NCBI GenBank assembly: GCA_009869945.1
Contig: WIXG01000007.1
Location: 310,001 to 374,000 of the forward strand
DNA length: 64,000 nucleotides
Direction of reading: 5' to 3'
Source of the DNA: Mesaphorura yosii
Lineage: Eukaryota > Arthropoda > Collembola > Poduromorpha > Tullbergiidae
The notes below the pieces were generated by a model. It saw only the letters and a list, made by a program, of their open reading frames with translations, was not told the DNA's origin and searched no databases. Below, piece after piece: positions 6,376 through 30,637 of the stretch (within the stretch, counting starts at the first letter, position 1; every line of letters begins with the position of its first letter). Made by a program: the position numbers and the translations under genes.

Positions 6376-8555
6376 ATGGCGGCACAGAAAAACCTATTTC
6401 GAGGCGCCCCAACCATCTTGATCGGCATAGGAATTTTGATTTTGCTATCGTCCATAGCATTGGGCATGGGAGGATTTCGAAAGCTGCTGAAGATTGGAAT
6501 TGGATCGGTAAGTATAAAAAGCATACGTTGCTGAGCCGCTTTGCATTTGACCTGGCATTGGCATTGGCATTGCAGCAAACCAAAATTATTCCTGGCAGCG
6601 ACGCGTACAAAATGTGGTCAGACGTTCCACTCCCAGTCTACATGAGCATTCAATTTTTCAATATAACAAATCCGGAAGAGTTTCATCAAGGTGGTAAGCC
6701 CAAGTTGCAGGAAGTTGGGCCCTACGTTTACAGGTGAGTTTACGGACGCGAACCTGTTGTTTCGGTCTATATTGAAGTGAGCGTGAATTCAACGTTGACA
6801 TTCAATTGAATGTCAGGGAACACTTGTACAAGAAGGAAATCAACATGTTTCCGGAGAACGACACTGCAAGATACCACCAGTATCATGATTACTTCTTCGA
6901 GAGGGACATGTCCGCAGGTCCGGAATCGGACGTCATCACGATGGTCAACATTCCGCTGGTGGCAATGGCAAAGTACGCTTCGTCTGCGATTGTGGCTAAA
7001 AATTGCTTTATTAATATTTTAGTCTTTATTAATTTCGACTATTTATCTCACAGAATGGCACACGATTTTACCGATGCCGATTTTGTACTGGAAACATTGG
7101 ACGATATGCTATCAAAGAAAGGAGAGACGTTCATCAGGCGTGAAACGGTGAGAGACATTCTTTGGGATGGATTCAGCGTGCAAAGCTTCGTTGATTTGGC
7201 CAATGATCCAATGGTCGAGGCTTCGGGGCAAGAAGTAAACCTCCCACCTGCAATGGAGGACGGAAGAATGGGACTATTCGAAGGAGTAATTAAATAAATT
7301 AAATATTAATGTTAGCCATTATATGACTAGCGCGATACATGCTATCGAGCGTGCAAATAGAGTGCGAGCGTGCTGGGGCATTTAGAGACTTTCGAATTTG
7401 TGTTGTGTTTAGAGAAATGGATCACATGAAGGCTGGTTCGAAGTTAGCACCGGTTTGGTCTCTCCAGCTGGATTTGGCAAGTTTCTGGCTCTCAACTATG
7501 AACGTTCGGTAACCGTTTGGAAAGCACCGAGCTGCAATGCAATAAACGGAACCGACGGAATGCTCCATCCTCCATTTCTGGATGATGTCCCGATGCTGCA
7601 GTTCTTCACGCCACAAATGTGTCGATCGCTCCTGTTCGATTTTACCAAGGAAGTCGACCACGGTGGAATAATAACCAGGCGGTACCAAACGTCGAAACGG
7701 ATGTTTCAGTCACCGAAAAATAACCCGGATAACTGGTGCTTTTGTCCGGAGAACTCCACCGACATGTGCACCATGAATGGACTCATGAGTATCGCGCCCT
7801 GTATTCAAGGTTGACATTTAAACACCTCTTTAATCTGCATGAAATTATAAAATAACAAATTAGATTAAGTTCAAGATTTAATGCTCGTCTTTGATCAGGA
7901 GCTCCGATGTACATCTCGAATCCACACTTGCTCTTCGCTGACAAAGAAATACAAGACCTGGTCGATGGATTAAACCCGAATGAGGAACTCCACTGGGGTT
8001 TCATGGATTTGCATCCAGTAAGTTAATGAACATGCCTATGCCCTCGCATACATGTTACCCTTACCGGACCCATAAAACTGCCAATTATTCTTAGCTGACG
8101 GCAGTCGCAATCGAAGCCAAGCACAAGTTTCAGTTCAACATCAAAATACAAGAGTGGCCAGCAATGCCGACATTTGAAAAGGTTCCAAACCTGTACCTGC
8201 CCATATTCTGGCTTCAAGAGGTTCGACAGTCTTATTCTAGCGACTATTTGTGTCCCGCTGTTTCGTCGCAAACTCGTTCCTTGCAATATTAATTTTATTT
8301 TTTTCACTATTTTAGGGCGCTGACTTGGCCGGACACACATTGGACGTTCATAAAATGCTACAAGGCCTATTGAATGGATGGGAACTTGGCAAGTTTGGCA
8401 TGGGGGCGTTCGGAGCTCTGGTTTTTCCTGGACTCGCTGCTCTAATCGCATTCAGGAGGTCAAGAAAAGCCGACGAAGTAACTCTCTTGGCTCCAACACT
8501 GTCCTCTGAGAGGTCGGTTGATTCAGTTGTTGTCAATGCCAAGCCTCTGTTTTAA
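6376..8555 (+). CDS. CD36-family class B scavenger receptor, copy 2
   Basis: A second complete receptor in the array. Exons: 6376-6507, 6576-6733, 6817-6972, 7054-7285, 7413-7809, 7899-8017, 8095-8220, 8316-8555. They total 1560 nt, or 519 aa. The first 1320 coding nucleotides have exactly the same cumulative length as copy 1, so no net indel separates them. Three introns of copy 1 are absent: exon 4 here equals exons 4+5+6 of copy 1 (232 nt) and exon 5 equals exons 7+8 (397 nt). Two terminal hydrophobic segments, IQFFNITNPEEF, EVGPYVY, INGTDGMLHPPF and the six loop cysteines (SCNAI, QMCRS, NWCFC, TDMC, APCIQG) are all present. The cytoplasmic tail is longer than in copies 1 and 3 and lacks their acidic end. 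AATAAA is at 8670-8675. Confidence 0.93.
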
Positions 8556-10000: not shown

Positions 10001-12261
10001 ATGGTAACTCTTCGAGCCAGCCTGCCCTACTTGGTTCTCCTGTTCGGCGCTGGGGGATTGGTGATTCTTATTCCGTTAGCACTTGGCGGATTTGAACTGA
10101 TCACAGACTTTATGATAAGTTTTGTAAGTCAGCGTGGGTTCATCCCACCGGAGAAAAAAGTAAGTATGTTTGCCATTTCAGGGCACTCGGATAGTGGAAG
10201 GGACGCCGACATACTACATGTGGCAGAAGATACCAATTCCTGTTTATCTTCGCATTCGTCTGTTTAACATTACGAATCCGAAAGAAATTGAGGAAGGAGC
10301 GAAGCCTAAATTAGTGGAGATGGGGCCATACGTGTACAAGTAAAGCTAATGCTACACGGAAATACTGGTCGCTATTGGTAGTATTTGGTATTATATAATG
10401 AAACTTTAATTATTCTTCTTTCAGGGAAACTTTGGAAAAATTTGACATCACATTCAATGAAGACGAGGACACGGCCAGATATAGACAAGTTCGATTCTAC
10501 TACTTTCAGCCGCAATTGTCAGCGGGCACCGAGGACGACTTGGTTACATTCATCAACGTAGCCTTTGTTGTAAGCTCTGGACTCTTGAGAATCATTTCTT
10601 CCTATGAAGCTTCCTGAATTCTCGAATTCAACTAGGGCGTAGCAAAAATCGCGCATGAGTTCACTGATGCTGACTATCTACTGGCTACGTTGCATGACTT
10701 GCTTACTGAGAAAGGAGAAAGGTTAACGAGGAGGCACACTGTTCGAGAAATTTTGTTCGATGGATTCTCGGTGCAAAGTATTCTGGAACTGGTGAGCGCG
10801 CACTTGAGCTATGTCGTACTTCTTACAAGTACACTTGCGCTTTCAACTTTCATAAACTTAATTTTTATTTTGGTAAGGCTGAAAGTGACTTAATTAAGTC
10901 AGCAGGAGAAATCCGCATACCTGAGCGGCTAATGGATGGCAAAATGGGAATACTTGAAGGCGTAAGGAAATTTTGGGTTTGACAACATTCACTATTCGAG
11001 GACATATTTTGATCTGTTTATTTAGAAAAACGGGTCGGACGAAGGTTGGTTCGTTGTAAAAACTGGCAGAGGCGATTCAAGAGACTTCGGCCGTGTTGTG
11101 AGTTGGAATGGGATGCGACAGCTGAACAAATGGAGCGGGCCCGAATGCAATACACTAAGAGGCACAGATGGGATCATTTATCAGCCATTCTTAACTCCCA
11201 AGACCCGACTAGAGGCGTTTGTACCTGACGTTTGCCGGTCACTCTACTTCACGTATCATGGAACGGTTCAACACGGCATAATAACGACATACCGCTTTGG
11301 ACAGCCCCCAGAGTTGTATGAGACAATTGAAAATAATCCTGACAACTACTGCTACTGTCCATTCAAAAACCTGACTTGGTGTCCACCGAAAGGTTGCACA
11401 TATGAATTAACTTTAATAGATTGCAGGCTTTTGATTGCGACTTGCTTACATTTGGTTTTTCAGGAGTTATCAGTGTGGCTACTTGTTTCGAAGGCGCGCC
11501 TTTGGTCATGTCGCAGCCACATTTCCTAGACGCTGATCCGACGGTTCAGCAAATGGTTGAAGGTCTATCTCCTGATCGTGATAAGCATTGGGGCTATTTT
11601 GATTTGCATCCTGTAAGCTAACGATTCTATCAATACTATTCGTGTTGCTCTCTGAAAAAATCGCTTTGCACCGTTTAATTTTTTTTTAGAGGACCGGCGT
11701 TTCAATCGAAGTTCGTCAAAAAGGTACAAGTACGCATTGTGTCTATCGATATGATACAAAATACAGAATTAGTTGAGGCTATATGTATGCTATTTCAGTT
11801 CAATTTGGAATTGAAGTATACCCCTGGCCTGCAATGACGACATTTGCCGACGTAAGTTATGAGATTCCAAGATTCTCACAATTCTCAGAACTAAACTCTA
11901 ATCCGTGTACAATTAATCAGGAACTGTTTCTATCATACTTGTCAAACAGGTGCAATATGCCTTCATTCCTATTCTTTGGGCCGAAGAGGTGTGTGCTCCC
12001 TGCTGTCTTATCAGAAATTGAAAGAACTCTTTAATCATGAGTTCCGAACCTTTTTCTCAGGGAGGTGATATCGACAACTTCACTCTAAACCTTCTCAAAG
12101 TGCTTGATATTGCGATGAAAGGATGGGCAATTGGAAAATGGTTCTTTCTTTTCTTCTGCTTGCTAATTACGGGTGCTGGTATTGGACTGATTTTGCAACA
12201 GAAAAAGTCATCCAAAGTTCAATTAATGGAAACTGACAGCATGAAATCTGATGATGATTAA
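10001..12261 (+). CDS. CD36-family class B scavenger receptor, copy 3 (divergent)
   Basis: The third receptor of the array, more diverged. Exons: 10001-10123, 10182-10339, 10425-10569, 10636-10791, 10878-10961, 11026-11392, 11464-11612, 11690-11723, 11799-11851, 11950-11988, 12061-12261. They total 1509 nt, or 502 aa. It has an N-terminal hydrophobic segment (about residues 8-35), RLFNITNPKE, EMGPYVYK, six loop cysteines (ECNTL, DVCRS, NYCYC, LTWC, VATCFEG) and a C-terminal hydrophobic segment before a lysine- and aspartate-containing tail. The otherwise conserved N-G-T-D-G loop reads R-G-T-D-G, losing that glycosylation sequon. The end of the ectodomain is split by two extra introns into exons of 34, 53 and 39 nt, while the introns seen in copy 1 at 3867-3925 and 4446-4504 are absent. 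AATAAA is at 12538-12543. Confidence 0.9.
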
Positions 12262-13746: not shown

Positions 13747-14557
13747 ATGAAGGGGTCAATAACACTGGTGCTTACAGTCATTGGGCTCGTCGCCATTTTA
13801 GTGAGTACTGAATGGACATATTAGTCTGCTCACAGTTAGATTCCTAGTTGCAAGAATTGATTGAGATGATCGAATCTTAGGATCTTGCCTATGGCGCAGA
13901 GGAAATGACGTGCAAGGAATTTGTTGGAAGCCTGACCAAGCGTCAGTTGGGAGGAATTCAAGAATGCAGCAAGAAATTGGGCCTGAAATCCGCAAAGGAA
14001 AAGAAAGAAAAGATGGCCGTAAGTCTTCTTTAGATTCCTTTAACGTGTACTTGAGGTGGGGCTTAATAATTGTTTTGTCTTTGATAGTGCGTACTCAAAT
14101 GCGTCATGATTAAGGAGAAATTGGTGAGCTCACGAAGTTTATAACCGTAGAATACACTGGGCTAATTAAAGTTCTAACCCGCGTTTTGAACATTTCCATA
14201 GTTGAATGAGGAAGGCCTCTTTGACGACGGAAGTTTTGATGCGTTCTTGGAAAAAGAAATGCCACCAAGTTTGCTAGCGAAAGGAGGGTCATTGTTCAGG
14301 CAGTGCAAAGATACTACAGGTACGTGTCAAAATGACGACAGGTTGTCGAAATGTTAGATTCAAAGGACAAAAGTTGAATTTTGTTGTAGGAAAACTCCTT
14401 GACCCAAAGGAGGAGTATTGCAAAACTTACGATGTTCTGATTAAGTGCTTCTTGGGCATTATTGGAGATGTAAGAATCCAGCATCAACATTGCAAGCATA
14501 CAAGCGTGCGTACATCTTTCATTTCAATTTTGGTTTTCCTTCTAGCTTTGCAAATAA
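13747..14557 (+). CDS. OBP-like secreted protein A
   Basis: Odorant-binding-protein-type (PBP/GOBP-like) small secreted helical protein, presumed carrier of small hydrophobic ligands. Exons: 13747-13800, 13881-14018, 14088-14123, 14202-14319, 14390-14469, 14546-14557; 438 nt, 145 aa. The first exon encodes a hydrophobic signal peptide (SITLVLTVIGLVAIL), and the mature part starts near DLAYGAEE. Cysteine order is C-x17-C-x17-C-x3-C, then a cysteine in LFRQC, then EYC-x8-C and a final LCK. The C-x3-C and C-x8-C spacings are the OBP signature. The first and last cysteines are additional to the classical six. It has the full set of five introns, including a 36-nt exon (CVLKCVMIKEKL) and a 12-nt last exon. 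ATG context is AAAATG. AATAAA is at 14886-14891. Confidence 0.82.
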
Positions 14558-15536
14558 ACCCACGTCGTCATCATCACCAAGAGTCATGACGCCATCAGCG
14601 CACCAAAAACGAACTGAAGCATCGCTTACACGGTCATTGTCGCTTCCTAATTTGTATGTTCACGTGGTTAATCAAAAGTCTGCACGTAGTGGTCTGTTGT
14701 TGGCTCTTTTGTAGTTTACATGTTCATTAAAATCATCTTTTCATTCATAACTAAGATTACTGGGTAGGAGTGAATTACTGAACCTCCATTGAAGCTTAAT
14801 TGTATAGCACAGTCTCATTGTAACTTTTAATGACCACGTCACTTCCTTTATCGCTTCATTACACGTATGTCACATTTAAATTCTGAATAAATTATTAAAA
14901 CTACCATTAATTAACTCGTGTCCGCTCGATGTCCATAACCACGAGGCATTATGATATTGGACTCTGAATCTCTGAGCGTGTAAATACCTTTAATAAGTAT
15001 TTCCGGTTTCGTGAGACAATGGATTTTATGCACTTTTGGAATCTGCATCCGCTAAATCCTCTTCGTCTGCTGGAGTCACTCTGTTTGCATGAAAGATGAA
15101 AGGCCTTGTTCATATTTAAAACAAGGCAAGGAACTTGATACTGTGCTCATAAATTATAAGTCGCAACAATGCGCAATGCTTGTTCAAATATTGCAGTAAA
15201 CTCTATTTCACGGGTCGATTTGACCTAATCTGCCTGGTCACGCCAAATGTAAGGTCATTTTGGATTTCCTCCTCGATCTTGGCTTATGTTTGTTGGTCAG
15301 GTTCTTCTGGCGTAGCTTCACAGTCACAAACGGTTAGATCCATTGTTATGCAATCCTTTGAACCGAAGCCTATAATTGTCTCATTGCTCATTAGGCGGAG
15401 ATAAATGGGGGCTAAAGCTCATGTTCACAGTTCACATGATATAAATATGGGGTTGAACTAAAGGTTATGCCTTCTGTTCTAAATTCGATGTGCTTCTGAG
15501 TTCGATATTGAGAAATCCATCAAGTCAAAAGTCAAA
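14558..15536. other. Intergenic region between OBP-like genes A and B
   Basis: It holds the 3' UTR of gene A, the promoter of gene B and no other supportable gene. A 74-codon open frame at 15180-15404 has no recognisable feature. Confidence 0.45.
15440..15447 (+). promoter_or_regulatory. TATA box of OBP-like gene B
   Basis: TATAAATA, 97 bp before the start codon. The same spacing recurs in genes C and D, which supports it as the core promoter. Confidence 0.65.
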
Positions 15537-16283
15537 ATGAAGAGGACGCAGACCCTTTCCGCGATCAGCGTTCTGTTGGTCATCTTGTTCGCTGGCACTG
15601 TAATTTCAATCTTGAATCTCGTAACTTGTGTACACGTCATAACTAAGTAAATTGAATCTGAATTTGAAACCCGTAGAATTTCGTTTATGGAGGCGAAGCC
15701 GAAGACAAGGCGTGTGCTGAAGCATTAGCGGAAATCACCAAGCGCCAAGTGTCCCAAATAAAGACTTGTTCAACGGAATTAAACTTGAGTCCAAAGGAGA
15801 AGAAAAACAAAATGAACGTCAGTTCGCCATGTTAAGTCCAACACGTATAGATTCACATAAGCCTAATCAGTGGTACACGTTTGCAGTGCGTGATGAAGTG
15901 CATCCTGAAGAAAGAGCGCCTGCTGAACGCCGAAGGAATGCTGGACAGTGAGTCAATTAAGGATATGATTGAGCACGAGGTTCCTGCGAATCTTGAGCAC
16001 TTGAGGGAGGCAGGCATTTCGATCTTAAACAAGTGCATGGCGGATCACGGTAAAGATAGCAAAAACCGCGAGGTATTGTCGAGAGTTTGTATTTGGTTAA
16101 TCTGATTTCTGATTAATCAAACTTCCAGGACCTAATTTGGACAACAATGACGAATTTTGTAAATCATACGCTCCGCTAGTCAAATGTCTGATGGGAATGA
16201 TGGATCTGGTAAGCTAAAACACATGAATGTAGATGCATAAAATTATTGACTTTGTTTGCCTTTTGCAGTGCAAGAAGGCTTAG
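15537..16283 (+). CDS. OBP-like secreted protein B
   Basis: Second cluster member, 153 aa. Exons: 15537-15599, 15677-15817, 15887-16049, 16129-16208, 16269-16283 (462 nt). A signal peptide (LSAISVLLVILFAGT) is followed by the eight-cysteine pattern: KAC-x17-C-x16-C-x3-C, ILNKC, EFC-x8-C and a final CKKA. The intron that in gene A follows the 36-nt C-x3-C exon is missing, so that segment is fused to the following exon (163 nt). The last exon is 15 nt and encodes Cys-Lys-Lys-Ala and stop. The conserved PNLDNND segment precedes the sixth cysteine, as in genes C and D. AATAAA is at 16333-16338. The ligand is unknown. Confidence 0.82.
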
Positions 16284-16860
16284 AGCGTGAGAATGCGATT
16301 GACTCGTCCGACTGAAGGCAGCATTACCATTTAATAAACGTGTCTTAAATCTATTAATAAATTTCGGACATTCGTTCCGTGCCCGTTGAAATTCGACCAT
16401 CTCGACTCTACTGAAGTTGAGACCACGCCAAATGAGCAAATCATCATTCGATACAAGCTAGCAGTAGTACAGCATAAGTCCAGACAACGCTTCACAATAA
16501 CAAAATGAACCTCGATTCACCACGTTGAGACATTCGACATGAGCACCAATGGGAAATGAAATCCATCCAGAGACGACAACGAGAATTCGAGCAACCCACC
16601 AAAAGCCAACCAAATTTCCAATCCCGAGCAAAAAGACCAAATCCCCGCCCAAATAAAGATACACAGACACAATTCAACAGATTTCGCAAAAAACATTGAA
16701 AAGGTCAAGTTTTATTCCAATAATTCAAAACTTGGTTTAAAAAGAATAAAAAACATGGAAAATCATAAAATCATTGAAAAACGTTGGCAAACATTGACAG
16801 AATACAAATTTTTGAACTGAGAACACTGAATGAATTGACTTGCATGACGACTGGTGTTGA
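16284..16860. other. Convergent 3' region of OBP-like gene B and the Gly/Tyr gene
   Basis: This stretch lies between two genes that point towards each other and should hold both 3' UTRs. Overlapping minus-strand open frames near 16458-16708 are unsupported. Confidence 0.45.
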
Positions 16861-17329
16861 TTAACCGTAGATTCCATAATAGCTGTACGGGTAGCCATAC
16901 CCGTACCCAAATCTGGAGTAAGGATAACCATAACCGTAGCCGTAGCCGCCATAGCCGCCATAACCATACAGACCATAGAAGAAGCCGGCTGCGTCCAGAT
17001 CGTCTTTCGACTTCAGGGTAGCAGGGGCAGCTCGAACAGGGCGTGCGGCGACTGAGACTGGCTTGCTCTTATCAGAGTCGTGGACTGACCGATCGTAGCG
17101 TACGTGCGTGTGCTGCGGGTTGTTGTGTTCACCTTTGTCGTACCCTTTGTTCCGGTCGTAGTCGTACGATGACGGTGCTGGAAGGCAGGTTCCAACAGCA
17201 GCAAAGAGGGCAAGAATCTGTGAAGATACAAAAGAAATATGTCGAGATTAGTACAGCCACTGCGTTATCGAGTTGGGCAACTTGCGCTTAGATAGTAACA
17301 TGAATTTAACTTACCAGAATAGCCTTCAT
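16861..17329 (-). CDS. Small secreted Gly/Tyr-rich protein
   Basis: Two exons on the minus strand: 17315-17329 (15 nt, Met-Lys-Ala-Ile-Leu) and 16861-17217 (357 nt), joined by a GT-AG intron in phase 0; 123 aa. The N-terminus MKAILILALFAAVGTCLPAP is a clear signal peptide with a likely cleavage site after residue 16-18. A charged linker follows (DYDRNKGYDKGEH, then SDKSKPVSVAARPVRAAPAT). The last third is built of Gly-Tyr repeats (GYGGYGGYGYGYGYPY, FGYGYGYPYSYYG). Such composition is known from cuticular proteins, silk or adhesive proteins and some nematode antimicrobial peptides; the sequence does not decide. It runs opposite to the OBP-like genes on both sides. A TATA box lies upstream at 17497-17505. 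Because the first exon is only five codons, a simple reading-frame scan misses this gene. Confidence 0.8.
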
Positions 17330-17496
17330 TCTTGTTGATTGTCTTGGAAAATCGTCCAAACGGGAAATGTGAGACTCCAGAGAATAGAAGTTGAAGTTGG
17401 TGTCCAAGAAAATTTGTCCAATGGAGCAGGGCAGCAAAGATCGGTTCAGCAGCAAGTCAAAAGGTGAAATGTCGTGGCTGACCGGGTCGGCACCGG

Positions 17497-17505
17497 CCTT
17501 TTATA
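17497..17505 (-). promoter_or_regulatory. TATA box of the Gly/Tyr-rich gene
   Basis: On the minus strand this reads TATAAAAGG, about 170 bp before the start codon. The extra distance compared with the OBP genes implies a longer leader. Confidence 0.6.
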
Positions 17506-18390
17506 ATTTTTCAGAGAGTCAAGTGGTCGTCTAAGACAGTGTGCATTGCGCACTGAAGCAGTGTATCTATTTTAGTGGATGGATTTACGGATTAAAGAAG
17601 TTAGTCACGTAGCACGTATCACGTTACGTTTTTTACCTGCTTGCATATCTCACATGCATTTATGAGACCACATGAAAGAGATTAGCATTTGTTGTCGCTG
17701 CTCGGACATTTGGTGCACTTTTCCTGGGAATATTTTTAAAAACGTTTTTAACTGGATGGAAAACCCAAGCTCTATTTTTACAATCAAAAAGCTCATTTCA
17801 CGTATACGTATTCAAGCCAAATATGAAAGGAGCATATCAGTTCCAAAAATGAATTGACTAATAAGATGCAGATATTGACAATATGAATTCGATTAGCATG
17901 CTCTTCATCGACGGCTGTAATATATAAGTACAAGAAATGCAAAATGAACTCAAGTGTGGATTTGAAGCATGCAAGCATGCTGTCACATCTAAGAATTGCA
18001 TGGCTTCGAAAAGTGTGACATTGACATTTCAAACCATTGCATAATCAACAATCGTAACTTAATACTCAAACGGTTCCTCCAAGACTGAAATCAATGGGTT
18101 GTGTCTGGTCAAGTTCAATGCAACCGAAGGGCAAAAGAACAGTGGCATGAAGCTGAAATTGACACCTGGCTTTATAATCTATGATCGCCATACGACTGAA
18201 TAAATTACTGCTTCGAAGGCGAATTAATTATGGTATTGAAGTAGCCAAATTGCCACTTTGATTGGAAGTCTCACCGCGGCCATGCATGATCGAATTGTTT
18301 TTGTAGTGCATGATCCGCCTGCACACGACGAAAGGATGCCTGCATTGCAATTAGATGTTTTATGGACACAGGTACCGAATTCAGGGGCCA

Positions 18391-18397
18391 TATAAAA
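18391..18397 (+). promoter_or_regulatory. TATA box of OBP-like gene C
   Basis: TATAAAA, 97 bp before the preferred start codon at 18488 and 79 bp before an in-frame upstream ATG at 18470. Confidence 0.65.
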
Positions 18398-18487
18398 TGA
18401 CCGAACAGTCCGAGGTCGGAATTTAGTAGAAATTCACGACTAAGAAATCCTTGTCCGTCGATTCTGCATATGGAGAAGATAACCAAA

Positions 18488-19291
18488 ATGGAGGCCAGGA
18501 AAGTCCTCATCACGCTGACGGTCGCAGCAACAATATTCTGTTGTCTAATCAACCCTTCAACCAGCAAAGACTTAGAAGTCGGGGGTGTAAAAGTGGATAT
18601 GTCAAATGCCAAGACCTGTGGTGATGTCATCAAGGAGATTGGAAAGCACCAGGTTTCAGCCGTCGGTGCGTGCACCAAGCAGCTTAACTTCAAGAATGCA
18701 AAAGAGAAGAAGGAGAGAGCGAATGTAAGACCAACGCACTATCAGTCGAATTTAAGTTTTACGAAAATGAAATAATTTGTGATCCTATCCGTAGTGCATC
18801 ATGAAGTGCGTTATGCAGAATGCAAAAGTCGTGAGTTTACCTTTCATTAGTAATTTGAATACGCTAGATAATTTGAATGAATTCAAACGACGACCTTATC
18901 TAGCTTGCTCCGGACGGGAAGTTTGATATGAAGTTGATTCAAGAAATGATTAACGAGAACATGCCGCCCACATTAGCTCACCTGAGAGAGAAAGGAGAGG
19001 CCATGCTTAACAAGTGCAAAACCGAACATGGTACGTGAATGTGAAAAGTCACAGTTGCATTTCGCATTTGACTTTTCAACCTGACTCTAACTTGCAATGT
19101 AAATCGTGCAACATCATTTGTGTAGAACCAAACTTGGACAACAATGAGGTATCTTGCAAGTCGTACGCTCCACTAATTAAATGCTTGATGGGACTCATGT
19201 CACTGGTACGGTGGAGAAAAAAGCCGTCGTGCAAGTGCAGTAAACTGATTGAGCTAATTTTAATCTGATTTGTTTTCAGTGCAATGAGTGA
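18488..19291 (+). CDS. OBP-like secreted protein C
   Basis: Third cluster member, 163 aa from the preferred start. Exons: 18488-18724, 18795-18830, 18904-19030, 19126-19205, 19280-19291 (492 nt). The start at 18488 has the AAAATG context shared by genes A, B and D and the same 97-bp distance from the TATA box as gene B. An in-frame ATG at 18470 (context CATATG) would add six residues. The signal peptide is VLITLTVAATIFCCLI. An insert (KDLEVGGVKVDMSNA) before the first cysteine is not found in the other copies. Cysteines follow the cluster pattern (TC-x17-C-x17-C-x3-C, LNKC, SC-x8-C, final CNE). The intron between signal peptide and mature region seen in A, B and E is absent. AATAAA is at 19401-19406. 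Confidence 0.82.
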
Positions 19292-20019
19292 GCTCACGCA
19301 AAGCGAACTCAGCGAACCAGCCAGGATTAGGGTAAATTCTTTATATGGACTTTGGATTTTTCAAAAATTACACTCTCTATGCTATTTGATGTTCGACGAG
19401 AATAAAACAAATTCATGTCCACGTCCAATTCCAATTTCTGCGTCCGCATGCCAGTATCAATCACAGCTAATGGAAAATTCAATTTTGGGTACTGGTAGAA
19501 AATGATTAAAGCATTGCACATGATCAACTAAACTGCACTGCGTTTATATTGCTCGCTACTCCATCATCATCAAGCAATTGCAATTATAATTTGGTCGTTA
19601 GGTGGTTGGCGGTGCTTACGCTTTTATCGTAAGGACAATAGACACACGAAATGCTGCTGCCTTGGTCATCAATTACCATGCTTATCAACAATGTGTTATG
19701 CATAGTAATGTTGGTACATGACATGGTGATGGAGGCCGTACGAAATGTGCAACCCTGCTGGGAGCGCGTGGCGATGATGAGGTGACCTGTCATAAAATCT
19801 CAGCAACCCAGCACGTTCATCGCCTGGCATTAACTTAATCTTTAGAAATATTGGATGGTTCATTAAAATTAAGCTCGGCACATCATTATCCAAAATTTAA
19901 TTAAAAAATGACACAATGGTATAAATATGACCCCAGGAATCAGTCTAAGCACGGTTGGACAATTTTCTACAGTTTCTCCAAGTCGTGTCGAGAATCTCCC
20001 AGAGACAAATAAACCGAAA
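19292..20019. other. Intergenic region between OBP-like genes C and D
   Basis: It holds the 3' UTR of gene C and the promoter of gene D. No gene is supported. Confidence 0.45.
19920..19927 (+). promoter_or_regulatory. TATA box of OBP-like gene D
   Basis: TATAAATA, 100 bp before the start codon of gene D. Confidence 0.65.
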
Positions 20020-20671
20020 ATGAGGGCCACACATATCTTGGTGCAAATTGTTGTAATTTCCCTGTTTGTGAGCTACATTGAAGGAGCGGCAGAAATGACA
20101 TGTGGAGAAGTCATCAAGGAAATGGGAAAGAAACAGATGGCTGGAGTAGGGGTCTGTACCAAGGAGCTGAACTTTAAAAACGCCAAGGAGAAGAAGGAAA
20201 GAGCCAACTGCATCATGAAATGTGTACTGAAGAAGGAACACGTTGTAAGTATTTAAATGAAAGTCCCCCTTGCCTTTGCATTCTCATTAAAACAGAACTG
20301 ACCTTCTATTCTAGCTCGGGGCGGATGGCAAATTTGATCTCAAGGCGATTCAGGAAATGGTCGATGAACAAATGCCACCGAATTTGGGCCACTTGCGAGA
20401 GAAGGGCGAGGCAATGTTCGAGAGGTGCAGAGCCGAGCATGGTGAGTGTGTCTAATTAAAACTAAAAATATGGACCATAAAAATAGACACTGAGAGAATT
20501 TGCATGAATAACAGAAAAAAATTTGGATAACAACGACGAAACTTGCAAGACATACGGACCGCTAATCAAATGTCTGATGGGAATCATGTCTCTTGTAAGC
20601 ATTCGTATGCAAAGAGGAACACTGAACCGAGGATGATGATGACTTGTCTTGTTTTGCAGTGCAAAGAATGA
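20020..20671 (+). CDS. OBP-like secreted protein D
   Basis: Fourth cluster member, 147 aa, closest to gene C in sequence (shared ELNFKNAKEKKERANCIMKC-type segment). Exons: 20020-20244, 20315-20441, 20515-20594, 20660-20671 (444 nt). The signal peptide is ILVQIVVISLFVSYIEGA. Cysteine spacing is TC-x17-C-x17-C-x3-C-x44-C-x14-C-x8-C-x7-C. It has the fewest introns of the cluster: both the signal-peptide intron and the intron before C-x3-C are gone, so the first exon runs through both. The 12-nt last exon encodes Cys-Lys-Glu and stop. AATAAA is at 20793-20798. Confidence 0.84.
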
Positions 20672-21772
20672 ACTTCTGCCTTCCTCGTCCTGTTCATTGC
20701 ATGTACCATCCTCCGAATTTTTTCTGGTGCTAGCTACAAGTAATGGAACCGAAGGATTTGACAAATATTGGACCACTTTTGTAATTTGTCTCAATAAAGC
20801 TCGGAGTCCAAATTCCGCAATGCATTTTATTCTTCTCATCTCTTATTTCCTGCTGCCGATATCATCCCTGTGCAAGTGACGTCAATTACTTGCAAATTCA
20901 CAATTGCTTCAATTACGGACAATTTGTTCATTCATGGTTTGGCACATTTGACAGGGTTTTAGCTGGAAGCATTTAAAAGCAGAGAAATTTTAGAGTTTAG
21001 ATTCATAACCTTGCTGGCATAATAGTATGCCCGTTTGAAGTTGTGAAGAAAATGCTCCAGAGCAATGACGTCAGCACTTACACCTTAACAGCAGCAGCGT
21101 ACCAGGTTAAATGTGAACTGACACAATCATTATAAACGATTCTAATGCCGTGTTTAATTGCTGTTTTAGCAAAGCACAAAGCAGCAAATTCTTCGAAGCC
21201 ATAATCATATGCTCCAAGCCTTTAATGTGTCTTTGCAGTTCGAGCGTCAGTGCTGCAAACCCACCTATAGTTTCTAAACCCTATAATTTTACACCACCTA
21301 ATGAAGTTAATATTCATATTGGTCAGGTCCATGCATCGTTATCGTTGTCCTAAACACCACTTTTGTACAGACAAAGCACTTCCTGTGTTTGCGTCCATTA
21401 CTTGCACGGTGTGCTGCAATCTGATGCACTATTGTTCCAGTTTCAGCTCATTGCTCATTAAAATGTTTTTATTGTCTTCAACCTAGTATTTAGCATTATT
21501 GGCAGCCATGTACAAGCCCTCAGCACAGACGATGAAAACGGAATTTTTTACAACTCATTAATACTTAATGAACTTTAGGATCAGCATGAAACGACGAAAC
21601 ACGAAACGCGAGATCCGTCAGCCTTCAGCCGCACACGATGGCAGCTCATCTTTTGTCCAGAGTTTACCTGATCGTTCAACCGAGCCTATATAAAGGCCTG
21701 AGTGCAGTAATTACGACGCAGCAATATATTTTTTTGCGAATCGCTTGAGGCGAGGCGTAATTCTGCAGCAAG
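20672..21772. other. Intergenic region between OBP-like genes D and E
   Basis: About 1.1 kb with the gene D 3' UTR and the gene E promoter. I looked for a decayed OBP copy and saw no C-x3-C or C-x8-C remnant. Confidence 0.45.
21687..21694 (+). promoter_or_regulatory. TATA box of OBP-like gene E
   Basis: TATATAAA within CCTATATAAAGGCC, 86 bp before the start codon of gene E. Confidence 0.65.
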
Positions 21773-22569
21773 ATGAAGACGATATTTATTATTTTGGTGG
21801 TGCTGTGCTCTTTGCCCTTCCTGGTAAGAACGGTTTCTTCTTCTTGGGGCGCAATCCAATTGAGATCTAACGCAGGTGATTCATTAGCGTGGTGATTTAA
21901 TTTCTAGATTGACGCCAAAACGTGCAAGGAGTTCATCACGGAAGCGTCAGAAAAGCAGATGAAATCTTTCTTCGCATGCAAGAAGGAATTGAACTACGCA
22001 ACAATTGAGGAGCGAATCGAAAAAATGACGGTAAGATTTTCTGGAAAGATTCACAATCTAGTTTGAAATATTCAGGTCATGAATTTCCGCCTCATATTTT
22101 TCATAGTGCATTCTCAGATGCGCCATGACAAAGGAAGGATTCGTAAGTCCAAGATTCAGAGTTCTTATTGAGGACTCCTTAAATCAAATGCGAAAACTAA
22201 TTTGCTCTGTCTTGTAAATTCAGCTAAGTAAGGACGGATACGTAGACGAGTCAAGTGCCATCGCGTACTTGGAGAGGGAGGTGCCGCCAGACGTTCAAGG
22301 GCGAGCCCTGCAGTTGATGGCACCTTGTCAAGTATAACGACCACTTTATTTGTTTCTCCTGCGTTGACGGTCATTAATTTGATGTCTTTTACAGGATTTG
22401 GTAGCTGACGTGAATCCCGACGAGGCGAACTGCTTATCGTACAAACCACTGATCAAATGTGCTATGCTAGTCATGTTTAAGGTACCTACTAATAAGCCAG
22501 ACAAGGTGAAAAAAGCAAAGTATGGCACGTTTATTCAATTTTATTTAATTTTGACAGGTTTGCAACTAA
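21773..22569 (+). CDS. OBP-like secreted protein E (divergent)
   Basis: Fifth and most divergent cluster member, 138 aa. Exons: 21773-21823, 21908-22030, 22107-22142, 22224-22331, 22395-22481, 22558-22569 (417 nt). The signal peptide is MKTIFIILVVLCSLPFL. The pattern is TC-x17-C-x17-C-x3-C-x41-C-x13-C-x8-C-x8-C, so cysteine number and the key spacings are kept although the sequence differs (KDGYVDESSAIAYLEREVPP in the middle). The intron set is the full one seen in gene A, including the 36-nt exon (CILRCAMTKEGF) and a 12-nt last exon (Val-Cys-Asn-stop). The fourth intron lies in phase 0 rather than phase 1. AATAAA is at 22647-22652. Confidence 0.8.
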
Positions 22570-23081
22570 CTTCTTCAACAACACGGGCCTAAACTGAACA
22601 TAATAGTTAATTATCCTTCGCACGAGCTTTGATTATGGCTCCTCCGAATAAAACTGACTAATCAGAGTAATGAGCACAGGGCGCCCATTTCCAGAGAAAC
22701 AATAAACTGCTAAACCACAAAAAGTACAAACTAATTTACACAAAACTCTTAAAACCGAATTTAAAAAAAAATCAGACTAACTACCTCAAATGTCACTCTA
22801 TCTTACAATCACTATAAAGATGAACGTCTTGCCCGTGGCTGAAAAGAAAAGAAACTTCGCGTCTAAATCCGCTCCTGTCATTTTTGCCTGCAGTCGAGTA
22901 CAAGTAACAAATACATTAAAACAAACTGAATGCTCCAATCGTTGCCAACTGTCCTTAGTCCTTCTTGAGAATCAATGCCGCCGTCAGCCGATCACCAAAT
23001 GTGTAGATTCTAGACACTCGATATGCATGAACTTATGAAATCTGCATTTTAAAAATTTGTGGCTTAAAAAAGAAATCAATC
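22570..23081. other. Convergent 3' region of OBP-like gene E and the Tudor gene
   Basis: It should hold the 3' UTRs of two genes facing each other. No coding exon is supported. Confidence 0.45.
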
Positions 23082-24236
23082 TTACTTCTCTTCTCCGTCT
23101 ACCATTTGTCTTAGGATCACCTTGACCCTGCTCATATGTTTCTCCGAAGAATGACCGACCTTCCTTATGAATGCACCAAATGTCTTCCCTTCCAGATCCT
23201 TCCTGACACTGCTGAGTATTTCAGCATCGAAAGTTTTAATATTATCAATGCCTGGAACTGCAAAATACAATTGTTACACTAAAAATTAAGGAGAATATTT
23301 ACACGTAGAATTTTTCCCACTTACCATCTAGGCCTGCCCATGCAGCCTGAATTGGAAGCTCGACATAATGTTTTCGTAGCAAAGCGACACACTCGAGTGC
23401 GACGATATCAGTTCTTCCGTGATCAACCATAAAAACTAGTAATTCCCAGCCTTTGCGTCCTTCGTCGCGCCAAACAGGCTCTAAAACTTTTCCCCTGAAC
23501 CAAATACCAAATCATGAAGTGACATGTTCACTAGAAAATCGTGAAAATATTGATTTCTAACCTATGCCATGCTCCCGTAACAAAGCTGAATATTGCGTAG
23601 AATCCCTTCATCTCAATCTCGTCCATTGTCAAGACTTCGCTGACTTTCCAGTGCGCCTGGTAGTATTCATACATAGCATCCTCCAAAACTTTTAATTCTT
23701 TCCTGGTCCCAAAATTACGAATCTAAAAGCACGAATGACCTTAACACTTGAGATTTTAGGGCATCTGTGATTATTTCGGTTTATAAGCAGTCCCTAAGCT
23801 TACGTAAAAGTCGTTTGGAGTATCCACTTCGTCAACAATAACATCATTTAGAAGTCGGTCTGACCAATACGGCGATGAAGGTATTGGAACCGGCAAAGGG
23901 TAGACGAAAGTAGGATCTTCAGCAAGTATTTCTTTGTCATGTTCTGTAAATATCAAACAGAAGAGAGTCATATCCATTCATATGCAAATGGTACGTCCAA
24001 AACTCTAAACTGAAGTTGAGGGTACATTTCATGAAGTCTTTACCAGTCACAATAAATGCGCTGTGCACTTCGGCCAATTTGGGCGGAGGGTCATTTGTTA
24101 CGTTCTTCTCAGGATCACACCAATCCGGTAGCTGCCTATCCGACAACATTTCGGACGCTTCTTTGTACAAAGCTTCCTCGTCGAGGTTTCTCGCGCTAAG
24201 CAGAGCCTTCTCCCATTTATTCCGTTCCAAATCCAT
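23082..24236 (-). CDS. Single-Tudor-domain protein (Papi/TDRKH-like Tudor)
   Basis: Tudor domains bind methylated arginine, commonly on Piwi-type proteins in the piRNA pathway. Minus-strand exons in order: 24236-24044, 23943-23804, 23722-23562, 23494-23325, 23257-23082; 840 nt, 279 aa. The core Tudor runs about residues 150-230: DEVDTPNDFYI, then FYAIFSFVTGAWHRGKVLEP, then VFMVDHGRTDIVALECVALL and LPIQAAWAGL. This is the usual order of the Tudor barrel (entry strand, W-x-R-G-x-V, V-D-x-G). The N-terminal ~100 residues show no KH domain, unlike Papi/TDRKH. The start is uncertain: the ATG at 24236 follows an acceptor-like TTCACTAG, so an upstream exon may exist and could lengthen the protein. 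Upstream lies the divergent Set2 gene. Confidence 0.75.
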
Positions 24237-25106
24237 CCAAATGTTCACCCTAGTGAATACAGGTCACACGCCTCGAAGTCTCTACGAGTAACCGATACGA
24301 CTAATTAATGGACTGACACTTTCAAGGTGCGTGTGGTTGGAACAACATCATGATATCATTTTCAGAAATCAGCACCATCAGCACGGTTTAGAAAGATGGA
24401 ACAATCAATGACAAGACCTTTCGTGTTTCGTTCCTGTCGGATTTGGCACACTCGCGTACTTCGATACAACGAGTCTAGCTTCTGATTTCTGCGGATACGT
24501 TGCAGCTTTATCGTTGGTCCGGTCCTTGGAAAGCAATCGCTTGAATTATAATCACTACTGTATGATCGATCAGATTATCAAGCAACGAATATTAACTCAA
24601 TACTGACAAAAAAACACACAAAAATACTAATTCTTGAACTCGTGTTTTGCTGGAGTAAACTGAGACACTCGGAACGCGACAGCTGACGGCGGCTTTCGTA
24701 AGAAGTTGAATTGAAATTGAAAGTAAGTTTATCGCGTCCTGCTACTACGCTACGATTATCCGAGTCCCGTGAGAGTATTTCATAATTTAACAAAATAGTG
24801 CCAGTTTTTACTTACCAAATTATCTACGATCGCTCATTTCGCTAACAGCCTAATAAACCTACCCACTGCTGCTTTAGCGAATGCGGTTGATTGCTCCTGT
24901 TGTAAAGTATCTGACTGTATTTTTGGCATTTACACCGGGATTAAGGTAAGGTCAATTTTCTATCTTCTCGATTGATTTAGAGGTAGACTTATCAAATTCC
25001 AAATTCAAGTTGAAACGAGTGGGCATAGGTCACCACAAAGTGCAATAGGCGTAATGGGCAACCCCAGCGCATTAATTTGATTATATTGGCTTCCAATTCG
25101 TTTTAG
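24237..25106. promoter_or_regulatory. Shared region between divergent Tudor and Set2 genes
   Basis: About 870 bp separates the two head-to-head coding starts. It probably holds both promoters and leader exons. A plus-strand ATG at 24881 opens a frame ending at a strong donor (AAG then GTAAGG, donor at 24946), which could be a Set2 leader exon. No TATA box is evident. Confidence 0.5.
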
Positions 25107-28100
25107 ATGGACCCGTCGAGAAATTCGCGAGCGCTAAGTCCCGATATCACAGAACTGTGCGCACCGAAACGAGAACCTCAACCTAAGCAAAAACCACCTG
25201 ATACATCGACTGGTAGGATTTCGTCCTATGTTCTAATTATAACTGGGCTTAAATAAATTAACATGAGTCTTTTCAATTCCAGAAGAAGAAAATGACAGCA
25301 CAAAGATACGTCGGAGTACCAGAATTAAGAAACTCGAAAGTAGCCGTGGAGGTGCTCGTAGGAGAGAAGTTGTATTCGCAAGAAGTTCTGATCGTGAAAA
25401 TGCCAGCAGAAGTTTTGATCAAGATGATGACTCTAATTCTAATTCCAATAGCGGCAATGGACTTTCGATGTCTAACTCAGTCCCAAATTTGGCTAATTTA
25501 AACCTGAATCCTTCTATTGAAGAAGCAGGACAAGCAGCTAGTTCATTCACTCTAAACACAACGTCCATTCAGAGTTCAGCGATGAAGTTAAAATCTCGCT
25601 GGAGATATTCCCTTGATGCGGAGTCGTTCAAGTCTTCAGCTACCATTTCCACGTCAGATTCCAACGAGAACAGTGCAGAGCGGCCAGAATCAGTAGCCTC
25701 CTCAGTGGAAGCCGGTGATCTTGGCCCAAGTAGCCAGTTTGAAGACTCCGGTTCACAGTGGAAGCCTAACCCCAACTTAAAAAGCAGACCGGGCTATATT
25801 CTAGCCGACTCGACAGACGCTGAACTAATGGACAAATTAAAGGAATTTGAAGGCATCGAAGAAAGCATATTTCTGACTGAGAGATACGTGAGCAAAGAAG
25901 GCAGAGGAATGGTTTGCGATTGCTTCCTCACTCGCGAAGAAATATCACGGGGAGAAATTGGTTGCAATGATGACTGTTTAAATCGACTGCTAATGGTCGA
26001 ATGGTAAGCTTCAGCCTCAGTCCCACAAAGCGCAATGGCTAGTTTTGATATTACAATATGAGTATGGGTTAATTCATTTAACAGTGGAAATAGATGCCCC
26101 ACCGGAGATCGCTGCACGAACAAAAGCTTCCAGCGCAAGCATTATTGTGGCTTGGAAGTCTTTCGCACAGAACAGAAAGGTCATGGCTTAAGGACAACAC
26201 AGACCTTACCAGCGTGAGTGTGAACCGATAATCGCATGCTACATCTATGAAAAAATTAATGAATCCCATTCTGTCGATTCATCGTTTTAGGGGCGGTTTC
26301 GTTATCGAATACGTTGGTGAGGTGCTAGATCCGAGAGAATTTAAGCAGAGAACAAGAGAATATGCCAAAGGCAACCAGGAGCACTTCTATTTCATGGCTC
26401 TAAAGTCAGACGCAATTATTGACGCCACATTAAAAGGAAATTGCTCTCGATTTATAAATCACAGTTGTGAGCCTAATTGCGAGACACAAAAGGTAGGAAA
26501 TAAAAATGCATTTGCTCTTCAATATTTTGATGCAATATTTAATTTAAACAGTGGACTGTGAATGGTGAATTGAGGATTGGATTCTTTGCAATTAAGGACC
26601 TTGAAGTTGGTGAAGAAATAACATTCGACTATCAGTTCCAAAGATATGGGTATGCTAGGCAAACTTGGCACACTTTACACTTGAATTGATCATTTCTCAA
26701 TTCTATCTATGACTGTTAACTACTTAGAAAAAAAGCTCAACAATGTTTTTGTATGACACCATCGTGTCGAGGTTGGATTGGCGGCGATGAGGAAAGCACA
26801 GTGAAGGAATCGGAAAGGCTTCGATTGCGAGCTGAGAAGAAGAAAAAAGAGCGAATGCAATGGGAAGATGTTGCTGTAAGTGCTTCACTAGTTGAAGATT
26901 GTGTGAATTTAAAGAATATAGTACTAGCATACGATGTTCCTGTAGTTGGAAGAAGAATTGCAAAAGTTGGAGATAACTGGATTGAGGAATAAAACTCAGA
27001 CGCTGAATTTATGCCGACTGATGGTCAGAGCAGAAGATTGGGACGCTCGTGAAAGAATCCTGAATGTGTTAAATGACGGAGACAGACCGTGCCTCCGCCT
27101 CTTTCTGGATTATCATGGTCTTAAACTTCTATGGGCTTGGATGCTTAATTTACCTCTGCCGTCTCCTGATGCTGAAATCCAACTCATTCGAAATGACCGA
27201 TACCATTTGTTGGTGAGTCAGAATAACAGTTTAGTAGTTACGCTGAACAAACGCACAAAATTGCTATGTTGTACATCAATTTAAAGATTTTGAAGACGCT
27301 CAAGGCACTTCCAATACCAAACAAAACAATTTTACAAGATAGCAGAGTTTTACAAGTTATTGAAAAATGGTCGTCTGCACCTCCAACCTCGACAATGATA
27401 CTGAAGAAAGTAAAACCTGAAATCTCTGAAGCCACGTCGAGCGACTCTGTGGTAAAGGAAGAAATCAGGCCGCAGCTAGGATCTTCGCATCCCGTTGAAC
27501 CGGAAATCAGTGCCCTAGAACGACAATTGAATGATGTTGAAATTCAGCCGGTGTCGACTACCTCCGAAAGTATGGAAATTGTGCCTGGTCTTGATTTATT
27601 GGACCACGAGAGTGGCAATGGTGATCCAGGAGAACAGGTCACAACCACGGAAAGCATAACACCGGAAGTTGACGATTTGGTTACGCAAGAGCTTAAATGG
27701 GAGTTTGTCGAGACAGCACAGGATTTGCTAGGTTCATGGAACGAGCTGACTGAAGTGTTCAGAATCCCGAAGAGAGAAAGAGTGGAGCAAATGAAGAAGC
27801 ATGAACGAGCCGCTGATATAAGCGGTGGATTGTCAGCTCTGATTCGAAGACCGGCTTCGAATTTGTCAACCACTGGGCCGTATGGAAAAGACAGGTAGGC
27901 ACATACTGACATTTACATACGTCTAAACCTCCACGTTGTGAAGTTTGAATTTGAACTTTAATTTATAATTACGCAGTCGTCTGAATAAGGCAAAGTCGAG
28001 TCTTGAAAGAAAAGTGCCTGTGTTGGACTTTTCTTATCGAAATCGAGAAAGGCCTAGCCGCGAACAACGACCAAGCGTTCCCTTCCCTCAATCCAACCTA

Positions 28101-29889
28101 TCGAAGGAAGAAAGAAGACACTTATTTGCTGCCCAGGTGGCCCGTGAAGAGGAAGAAGAAAGAAATCGGCAAATGCAAGATCATATGGTAGTTTTGCATC
28201 AGGAACGATGCGCAAATCTTGGCTTGGATGCTGCTACTGTCCCGATATTAGATCCAACATGCACTTACTACTTGGAGCCATCGACAGTCACATGGAGAGA
28301 GATTGACTTAAATGGTAGGCAGTGGGCAGTACTTAAAATGTCTAGGAAATTAGCGTGAAGAAAGATTTCTTTATGTTGTCCATCGTGTTTAGATCCTACT
28401 CTGCCGCCTGAACTGGCACTAATTGTTCGAGCCAGTCAGCAACCTCCAGAACCAATCGATGTACTAACTCCAGAAGCCGAGTTTACGTTTCCTCCCTGGC
28501 CCCAGGGCCTTCCGCCTCCTCCTCCTTTGCCTCCGACAGTTTTACCAAGAGGATGGAGAATGGCTGTTGATGACGACGGGCGATGTTACTATTATGATAT
28601 TCGATCTCGCCAAACGCAGTGGAATCCTCCTTCGCCTGACACGTCCAGTTACAATTCATCTGACTCTTCTGATTCAAATTCCAGTGAAGATGAGGAAGTT
28701 GAAGATGAAAATATATCTCCTTCATATGACTTGGAAACGCCAAAGCTGAGGCTGAAGGTGTCAGACAGATCTGAACGTAGGAAAAAGTCTGGTTTAGTCG
28801 TAGAACGAATAATCAGTGTAAGTAATTCATCCAACATCCAACCGTTACCCTATAATAAGTGCACAGTGATGAAAATTATGAAAATGACATTGTTGCATTT
28901 AGCCCCGGGATGAAGATGATAAACCAGCCATTAGTCAGAAGTCAATTCGGGCGAAGAAACTTCAACTCATGGAACGAAAGATTCGACAGGAAGCACTCGA
29001 AGCTCGAGGACTAGGAAAAAATAACGACGAAGAAACGGACGTATTACCAGCGCCAGCTTTAAATAAAGAAGGAGACTTCCCCGAGGGACAAAGCTCACCA
29101 GAAGAAAGCACGAAGAAAGAAATCGATGAGGCGTCAATGAGTGAGGAAGGAATGGATGTAGATCTCTCAGAAGATAGTGCTGCTGGCGACGCAACGTCTA
29201 GTAATTCAGGCGATCAATCTTCAATAATAAGCAAGAATGAAATGTCACCGACGTTGCCAGGTTTTAGTCCAACGGAATCTCTTGAGGCCGATGTCAGTGA
29301 ACCTTCAACAGTGGAGAAGCCTTCGTCTCTTGGACCATCTCCGACATCTGATGAAACTATTTCCTTGGTCAGAGGCCATCCAGCGTCAACAAGTTTGACG
29401 CCCACGTTGAGTAAACTAGCAGACAAAGCTCATCGTAAAAGCAAAACAGTCGACAAGAAACTTACCCTACCCGATAAGCATAAACTGCAAAAACAGAAAT
29501 CAGTCAGTATTGACATCTTCAGAAGCCAAATAGCAAATGTCATAGTGGAACACTTGAATCCATATCGCAAGGCAAAGTGCACGATGGGCCGTATTACATC
29601 GAATGAGGATTTCAAACATCTTGCAAGGAAGGTAAGGTGTCCACTGTCAACGTCAGTTGTTCAACCAGCTTAATTGTCCTTTTGTCATGTTCAACGTTGA
29701 CTGCAATTGCCTATTTCTGAATAGATGACACACACCATAGCCTTGAAGGAGCTCAAACGCTGTCGAGACGGCAAGTCGCTCGTGGTCAATGAAAGTGTGA
29801 AGCACAAGACGAAAGAGTACGTGAAAAAGTACATGGCTAAATACGAAGGACGGGATTACGTCAAGTCTCCAGAAGAGGGAAAGCCATGA
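25107..29889 (+). CDS. Set2: Histone H3-K36 methyltransferase Set2/SETD2
   Basis: Set2 trimethylates histone H3 lysine 36 behind elongating RNA polymerase II. Exons: 25107-25212, 25283-26003, 26085-26213, 26291-26492, 26552-26649, 26728-26875, 26946-27212, 27287-27894, 27977-28314, 28393-28817, 28903-29631, 29725-29889; 3936 nt, 1311 aa. After a serine-rich N-terminus come the AWS domain (about residues 245-300; CDCF, CNDDCLNR, GNRCPTGDRC), SET (about 300-418; GGFVIEYVGEVLD, FINHSCEPNCE, EEITFDYQFQRYG) and post-SET cysteines (CFCMTPSCRGWIGG). A WW domain lies near 922-955 (LPRGWRMAVDDDGRCYYYD to QWNPPSP) and an SRI domain, which binds the phosphorylated polymerase tail, near 1215-1305 (VIVEHLNPYRK, FKHLARKMTH). 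The start ATG sits immediately after an acceptor-like TTTTAG. The acceptor at 27286 lacks a clear pyrimidine tract but is fixed by phase. AATAAA is at 30001-30006. Confidence 0.93.
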
Positions 29890-30637
29890 GAATAGGTTGC
29901 ACAGATCATATTTGCTATCAAGCCAAATTAGTATTAAGATTTTACGCAGAAACTCTTCTGCCCTTTTCTAGCATGACCAACTAAGACTCTGGCACGTGTC
30001 AATAAATTACAAGTAACAACATATGAAGTAATAAATGTTTAATCAAAATGAAAGTACAAAATATCACCGATAACAAACTTTCTATGATAATAACATCATA
30101 AATATGGTAATTATGGAATAAACCCGAAGACGGGTTTGTAACTACTTCAGTAGCACAGAGCATTCAGTATCCACATTTAAATACGTTCCCCATCACAAAT
30201 GCTTTCACTTCACCCAAAAGGCTAACAACTTATTTAGAAGAAAGTAATAAAATAACATTGGGAAACCTAATTAATTTAGTGATTTTCCACCAAAACAACG
30301 CTAGCGAACATGTGCAGGTGTCTCAATCTTGAGGTGCCCGTTCAATACTTCGCCATAATTCTGCCTGGCATGTTACGTCTAAGAGGAGGAGGCGACGCGA
30401 CGACGACAATCGCAAATGACACTGACATATTCAACCGTGCATAAATAATAATACTTCATGGTTTCTAGTTTCTACTCTAGTCAACGCCACGGCCACAATA
30501 TAACATATGACATTCATAACGCATGCTCTTCACGTTCTTGTTATGTAATTTGCGAAGTATGTCTATGTGGAACGGCACAGCGCAATTTAATTTAAATGCC
30601 GTCTCGCTATAAGACTCGCTGAACGCTGTGCGCTACA
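29890..30637. other. Convergent 3' region of Set2 and the ZP-N gene
   Basis: It holds the Set2 3' UTR (AATAAA at 30001) and, from the other side, the 3' UTR of the minus-strand ZP-N gene. No other gene is supported. Confidence 0.45.

Follow-up and report, generated by a model that had tools for sequence, protein, structure and literature searches.

The stretch of DNA considered here (the window) comprises 64,000 nucleotides of the genome of the springtail Mesaphorura yosii (GenBank assembly GCA_009869945.1, contig WIXG01000007.1, positions 310,001 to 374,000 of the forward strand) and carries five odorant-binding protein (OBP) genes, arranged in tandem on the plus strand between window positions 13747 and 22569 (Table 1). 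Spliced models of these genes were built along GT-AG junctions, and all 21 of their introns are bounded in this way. In genes 1-4 the intron ahead of an NLDNN-like segment has phase 1; every other intron, including all five of gene 5, has phase 0. A tiny terminal exon of 12-15 bases codes for the last cysteine in each of the five genes, and the N-termini of the encoded proteins, judged by eye, are hydrophobic.

Table 1. Genes and other features located in the window
Feature	Position	Strand	Product	Exons	Remarks
OBP gene 1	13747..14557	+	145 aa	13747-13800, 13881-14018, 14088-14123, 14202-14319, 14390-14469, 14546-14557	eight cysteines; PF01395 E 1.5e-5, above cut-off
OBP gene 2	15537..16283	+	153 aa	15537-15599, 15677-15817, 15887-16049, 16129-16208, 16269-16283	PF01395 E 6.8e-7
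OBP gene 3	18470..19291	+	163 aa with start at the second in-frame ATG (18488), 169 aa with start at 18470	18470-18724, 18795-18830, 18904-19030, 19126-19205, 19280-19291	PF01395 E 4.7e-8
OBP gene 4	20020..20671	+	147 aa	20020-20244, 20315-20441, 20515-20594, 20660-20671	PF01395 E 4.9e-8; 63% identity to gene 3
OBP gene 5	21773..22569	+	138 aa	21773-21823, 21908-22030, 22107-22142, 22224-22331, 22395-22481, 22558-22569	PF01395 E 2.4e-5
Two CD36-family genes		+		at 6345-7814 and 11026-11529	PF01130
Small Gly/Tyr-rich open reading frame	16861-17247	-			hydrophobic start; no Pfam match
Frames with AWS-like match and WW domain	about 25267-29673	+			AWS-like match below cut-off
Rhodopsin-type G-protein-coupled receptor	55864-57756	-			long open frame; PF00001 1.6e-35

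The five proteins share an eight-cysteine register, Cys1-x17-Cys2-x16/17-Cys3-x3-Cys4-x41-44-Cys5-x13/14-Cys6-x8-Cys7-x7/8-Cys8 (C1 to C6 are reserved below for the six classical cysteines of insect OBPs). The successive gaps are 17, 17, 3, 41, 14, 8, 8 in gene 1; 17, 16, 3, 44, 14, 8, 7 in gene 2; 17, 17, 3, 44, 14, 8, 7 in genes 3 and 4; and 17, 17, 3, 41, 13, 8, 8 in gene 5, surplus cysteines in genes 3 and 5 being confined to the signal-peptide region. The original prediction, made from the DNA letters alone, had described C-x3-C and C-x8-C in all five proteins, an extra cysteine 17 residues ahead of the classical first one and another 7-8 residues past the classical sixth, and a short C1-C2 gap of 16-17. 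The spliced models agree with it throughout: both motifs are present in every one, the first gap is 17 and the last 7 or 8 in five of five proteins, and the short gap is 16 in gene 2 and 17 in the other four.

An exon-by-exon search of the whole 93 Mb assembly, which makes the numbers of paralogues lower bounds, allowed us to model 11 more OBP genes, on contigs C1 (three), C21 (two), C381, C389, C653 (three) and C872. The same eight cysteines are found in all 16 models, each with C-x3-C and C-x8-C inside a six-cysteine frame, and the gaps range over 16-21, 16-22, 3, 40-48, 11-16, 8 and 7-17. Since 11 further genes carry the same cysteines, the pattern of the window proteins is not a chance one. 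Some members elaborate on it. One gene of contig C1 (C1a) has one additional cysteine beside Cys7, and the C872 paralogue (locus L050, 1800-2465), which has a single intron, is extended at its N-terminus by a stretch with a further C-x27-C pair, so that its likely mature chain counts ten cysteines. In the three C653 genes (loci L052 and L053) the last cysteine is placed later and both extra cysteines are retained; it is followed by long Gly-rich tails in the two genes read to the end, the third continuing in a Gly-rich frame. Such tails point to a structural or matrix role. Because the searches give lower bounds and places of weak match on contigs C225 (two), C257, C415 (two) and C428 were left unread, the genome may also hold classic six-cysteine members.

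The curated Pfam cut-off for PF01395 (PBP/GOBP) was passed by all 16 models, the C653 models being entered without their Gly-rich tails and C21b and C653a as trimmed cores; the profile check that the original prediction had proposed thus placed the five window proteins in this family. A single protein used as a query against the PDB retrieved only a designed repeat protein (E 1.5). The profile of the five proteins gave 28 rows, 27 of them OBPs or pheromone-binding proteins (PBPs), with a best E of 0.0012, and a profile of 14 proteins gave 52 rows, 50 of which are OBPs, PBPs, D7 or related salivary or carrier proteins, with LUSH as the best match (E 4e-7). The idea of a separate small-carrier family, which the original prediction had left as an alternative, is rejected by the PF01395 result together with these OBP-dominated structure matches, whereas its other proposal, an OBP branch marked by a constant additional pair of cysteines that plausibly form a fourth disulphide, is borne out. 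No window OBP had an OS-D match in the Pfam search, and their identification as chemosensory proteins is therefore rejected as well; matches to Sol_i_2 in gene 1, gene 5 and C21b were weak and below the cut-off. Judged by sequence, the proteins belong to an ordinary known family, and it is their cysteine set that is unusual. The best explanation includes the window genes being tandem duplicates of one springtail PF01395 family. In 11 pairs the amino-acid identity is 32-63% and the nonsynonymous divergence (dN) 0.25-0.69; the synonymous divergence (dS) lies at 1.6-4.0 in six pairs, the other five giving no computable value, so that these figures are weak evidence of evolutionary constraint.

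The displayed profile alignments to PDB sequences put C-x3-C on classical C2-C3 and Cys5 to Cys7 on or near classical C4 to C6. In the profile alignment Cys2 falls on Cys19 of the moth protein 6vq5, the structural alignment to 6vq5 has the same offset, and the Pfam match of the C381 protein (one of the 16) starts so that Cys2 would take the first-cysteine column. Against this assignment, in 4 of the 16 Pfam matches it is Cys1 that would take the profile's likely first-cysteine column. The structural-alignment rows of the paralogue model cover Cys3 onward only, which slightly lowers confidence in the overall explanation given below. On balance, Cys2 would correspond to classical C1, so that Cys2-Cys7 fit the classical six and Cys1 and Cys8 would be the added pair, most likely joined in a putative fourth disulphide, a terminal clasp.

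The fold was predicted for one paralogue, without its last cysteine. The model is an OBP-like bundle of five helices in which helix 2 is absent, and its nearest solved structures are OBPs, blowfly OBP56a being among the matches (absence of a family from the VIA-align list of structural neighbours does not exclude it). The original prediction had named a fold other than the six-helix OBP fold as evidence against itself; the model does depart from six helices, yet it remains closest to OBPs. This model and the short Cys2-Cys3 segment (16-17 residues), from which the loss follows in the proposed fold, together predict that helix 2 is missing from the window proteins too.

The usual C1-C2 gap of classic insect OBPs is about 26-30 residues. 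The springtail proteins share C-x3-C, C-x8-C, the profile match and, as far as the one predicted model shows, an OBP-like bundle with classic members such as LUSH, the moth PBPs and the cockroach PBP, but they have eight cysteines rather than exactly six, a gap of 16-22 and, in that model, no helix 2. In dipteran Plus-C OBPs a proline follows C6. Two extra cysteines and one proline define the subclass (PMC8067015); the springtail proteins have two extra cysteines as well, but none of the 16 has a proline directly after Cys7, and we reject their assignment to this subclass. Anopheles OBP7 (3r1v, 3r1p), "with four disulfide bridges", is comparable as far as this description goes. Closer are the locust plus-C type-B OBPs (LmigOBP6, SgreOBP9), for which two additional cysteines are described, the first preceding C1 and the second following C6 (PMC6062766). 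Provided that Cys2 is C1, the window proteins and their paralogues show the same placement, as described, within the same family. The type-B form accounts for one of 17 Locusta OBPs in that paper, as against 16 of 16 members read with the eight-cysteine pattern in the springtail.

The second relevant system is the chelicerate OBP-like family. In Varroa OBPs the bridges join the first cysteine with the last, the second with the third and the fourth with the fifth, as established by mass spectrometry and, for OBP1, also by crystallography; Varroa OBP1 lacks helix 2 (PMC8222343). Varroa destructor OBP1 (7nyj, 7nza) has six cysteines only, without equivalents of Cys3 and Cys6, the counterparts of insect C2 and C5, both of which are present in all 16 springtail models. 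Terminal cysteines are present in the springtail proteins too, and helix 2 is absent from the one model. At the sequence level, the 14-protein profile search of solved structures did not retrieve the Varroa protein. Spacings were compared in 15 models (C653a was left out, the trimmed version used ending before Cys8): the best pair to drop is Cys3 and Cys6 in 12 of them, with one tie, and Cys3 and Cys8 in three, which favours, and does not settle, the equivalence of Cys3 and Cys6 to the cysteines missing in Varroa. Dropping Cys3 and Cys6 leaves the Varroa set and takes away exactly one classical bridge (C2-C5), and dropping Cys1 and Cys8 leaves the insect set; the springtail proteins thus represent the union of the two, and homology of the three cysteine sets may be inferred. 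The epithet "lineage-specific" in the original prediction has become doubtful because the locust type-B cysteines are similarly placed (PMC6062766) and a first-last bridge is proven in Varroa (PMC8222343).

As an overall explanation we consider it probable that the window encodes tandem springtail OBPs with the three classical disulphides, a Cys1-Cys8 clasp and no helix 2, which act as carriers of hydrophobic ligands. The product would be secreted, as its hydrophobic N-terminus suggests, and would fold into a helical bundle held by three interlocked disulphides, Cys2-Cys4, Cys3-Cys6 and Cys5-Cys7, equivalent to C1-C3, C2-C5 and C4-C6 of insects, with a fourth, Cys1-Cys8, linking the beginning of helix 1 with the end of helix 6. 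Helix 2, the pocket lid of insect OBPs, would be missing as in Varroa OBP1, leaving the pocket open on one side, and the clasp would stiffen this otherwise open pocket and may compensate for the lost helix. The knot could instead be rewired, with Cys1 and Cys8 not paired together and, for example, Cys1 bound to Cys2 or Cys4 and Cys8 to Cys6 or Cys7. Varroa OBPs show that linkage can change within the superfamily (PMC8222343), and such rewiring would suit both the four Pfam alignments in which Cys1 may occupy the classical first place and the three spacing comparisons that favour dropping Cys3 and Cys8. We nevertheless find it quite unlikely: the order of Cys2-Cys7 and their x3 and x8 signatures are the classical ones, Cys2 lies on the classical first cysteine in both alignments to the moth PBP, and the proven end-to-end bridge of Varroa joins positions near Cys1 and Cys8.

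The carriers would most likely transport small hydrophobic molecules in extracellular fluid, and gustatory receptors, ionotropic receptors or CD36-type proteins may take over the cargo; these partners are proposed because no match to the insect odorant-receptor family was found above the cut-off in the assembly, four weak ones lying below it. The same negative result speaks for a reading that rivals the role and leaves the fold and the clasp as they are, namely that the proteins are general carriers of lipids or other hydrophobic compounds that work in the haemolymph, the cuticle or glands and resemble fatty-acid-binding OBPs or the OBP-fold proteins of venom and saliva. For Varroa OBP1 the closest structure given by its authors is a fatty-acid-binding OBP, blowfly OBP56a (PMC8222343); the presence of that protein among the matches found here and the weak Sol_i_2 matches point the same way. 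Expression of the locust plus-C type-B OBP9 around all four types of antennal sensilla (PMC5913285) argues against such a role. Its probability, in our estimate, falls somewhat short of even, also given the genomic arrangement: chemosensory carriers usually come in tandem, divergent clusters.

The two tandem CD36-family genes of the window lie just upstream of the OBP cluster; in Drosophila the CD36 relative SNMP1 acts together with the OBP LUSH (PMC8067015). A cluster of chemosensory-protein (OS-D) genes is present elsewhere in the genome, on contig C80. The small Gly/Tyr-rich frame between OBP genes 2 and 3 is unrelated to OBPs, the AWS/WW frames perhaps belong to a SETD2-type histone methyltransferase, and the rhodopsin-type receptor resembles neuropeptide receptors by eye. 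Outside the window, contig C420 (G000; 16001-33336, loci L058, L059 and L060) bears a beta-lactam cluster with an ACVS-like nonribosomal peptide synthetase and DAOCS-like and CmcJ-like genes. Three domains of the condensation type and a partial match to a thioesterase were found in the synthetase. Its first adenylation domain starts in a frame of its own ahead of the main one, as expected with an intron, which speaks against a contaminant contig; the deacetoxycephalosporin C synthase-like gene matches 1w28 with an E of 5e-66. Condensation domains were also matched on contigs C394 and C1089. Beta-lactam genes of animals have been reported in springtails and a plectid nematode (PMC10531068), a cluster of Folsomia candida including ACVS, IPNS, cmcJ and cmcI (PMC5490193). 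By themselves, the beta-lactam genes, the chemosensory proteins and the missing odorant-receptor match above the cut-off make a springtail genome very probable, and OBP and chemosensory-protein genes speak against a nematode. On the other side, 93 Mb is small for a springtail and a search for cytochrome oxidase I gave no match, but another arthropod with beta-lactam genes, or contamination by the contig that bears them, is very unlikely.

Springtail OBPs were reported before from Folsomia candida and Orchesella cincta (the text of PMC4145409 counts 7 sequences, its table 4 and 2), and these may share the eight-cysteine pattern. Our literature search, which covered titles and the openings of abstracts and lay outside most subscription papers, found no description of an eight-cysteine springtail OBP. 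The terminal clasp itself is already known in part from the locust type-B cysteines and the Varroa bridge, respectively; the apparent novelty lies in the occurrence of the pattern in all members read and in the joining of the insect and mite cysteine sets in a single chain. A 2014 survey places OBPs in hexapods only, with no progenitor elsewhere (PMC4145409), and the Varroa study describes the mite bridges as linked in a completely different way from those of insects (PMC8222343). A springtail chain with both cysteine sets suggests how the two linkages could derive from each other and offers a concrete, testable intermediate. It is attractive to think that arthropod OBPs began as the eight-cysteine, four-disulphide, five-helix form, kept by springtails throughout the family, reduced by mites through loss of the Cys3-Cys6 bridge and by most insects through loss of the clasp along with the gain of helix 2, the locust type-B proteins being survivors; this scenario is tentative and, in our view, rather doubtful. 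If it is true, insect and chelicerate OBPs would be one homologous family older than insect odorant receptors. With 16 or more OBP genes and no insect odorant-receptor match above the cut-off, this genome also lets one ask directly what such carriers do in the absence of those receptors.

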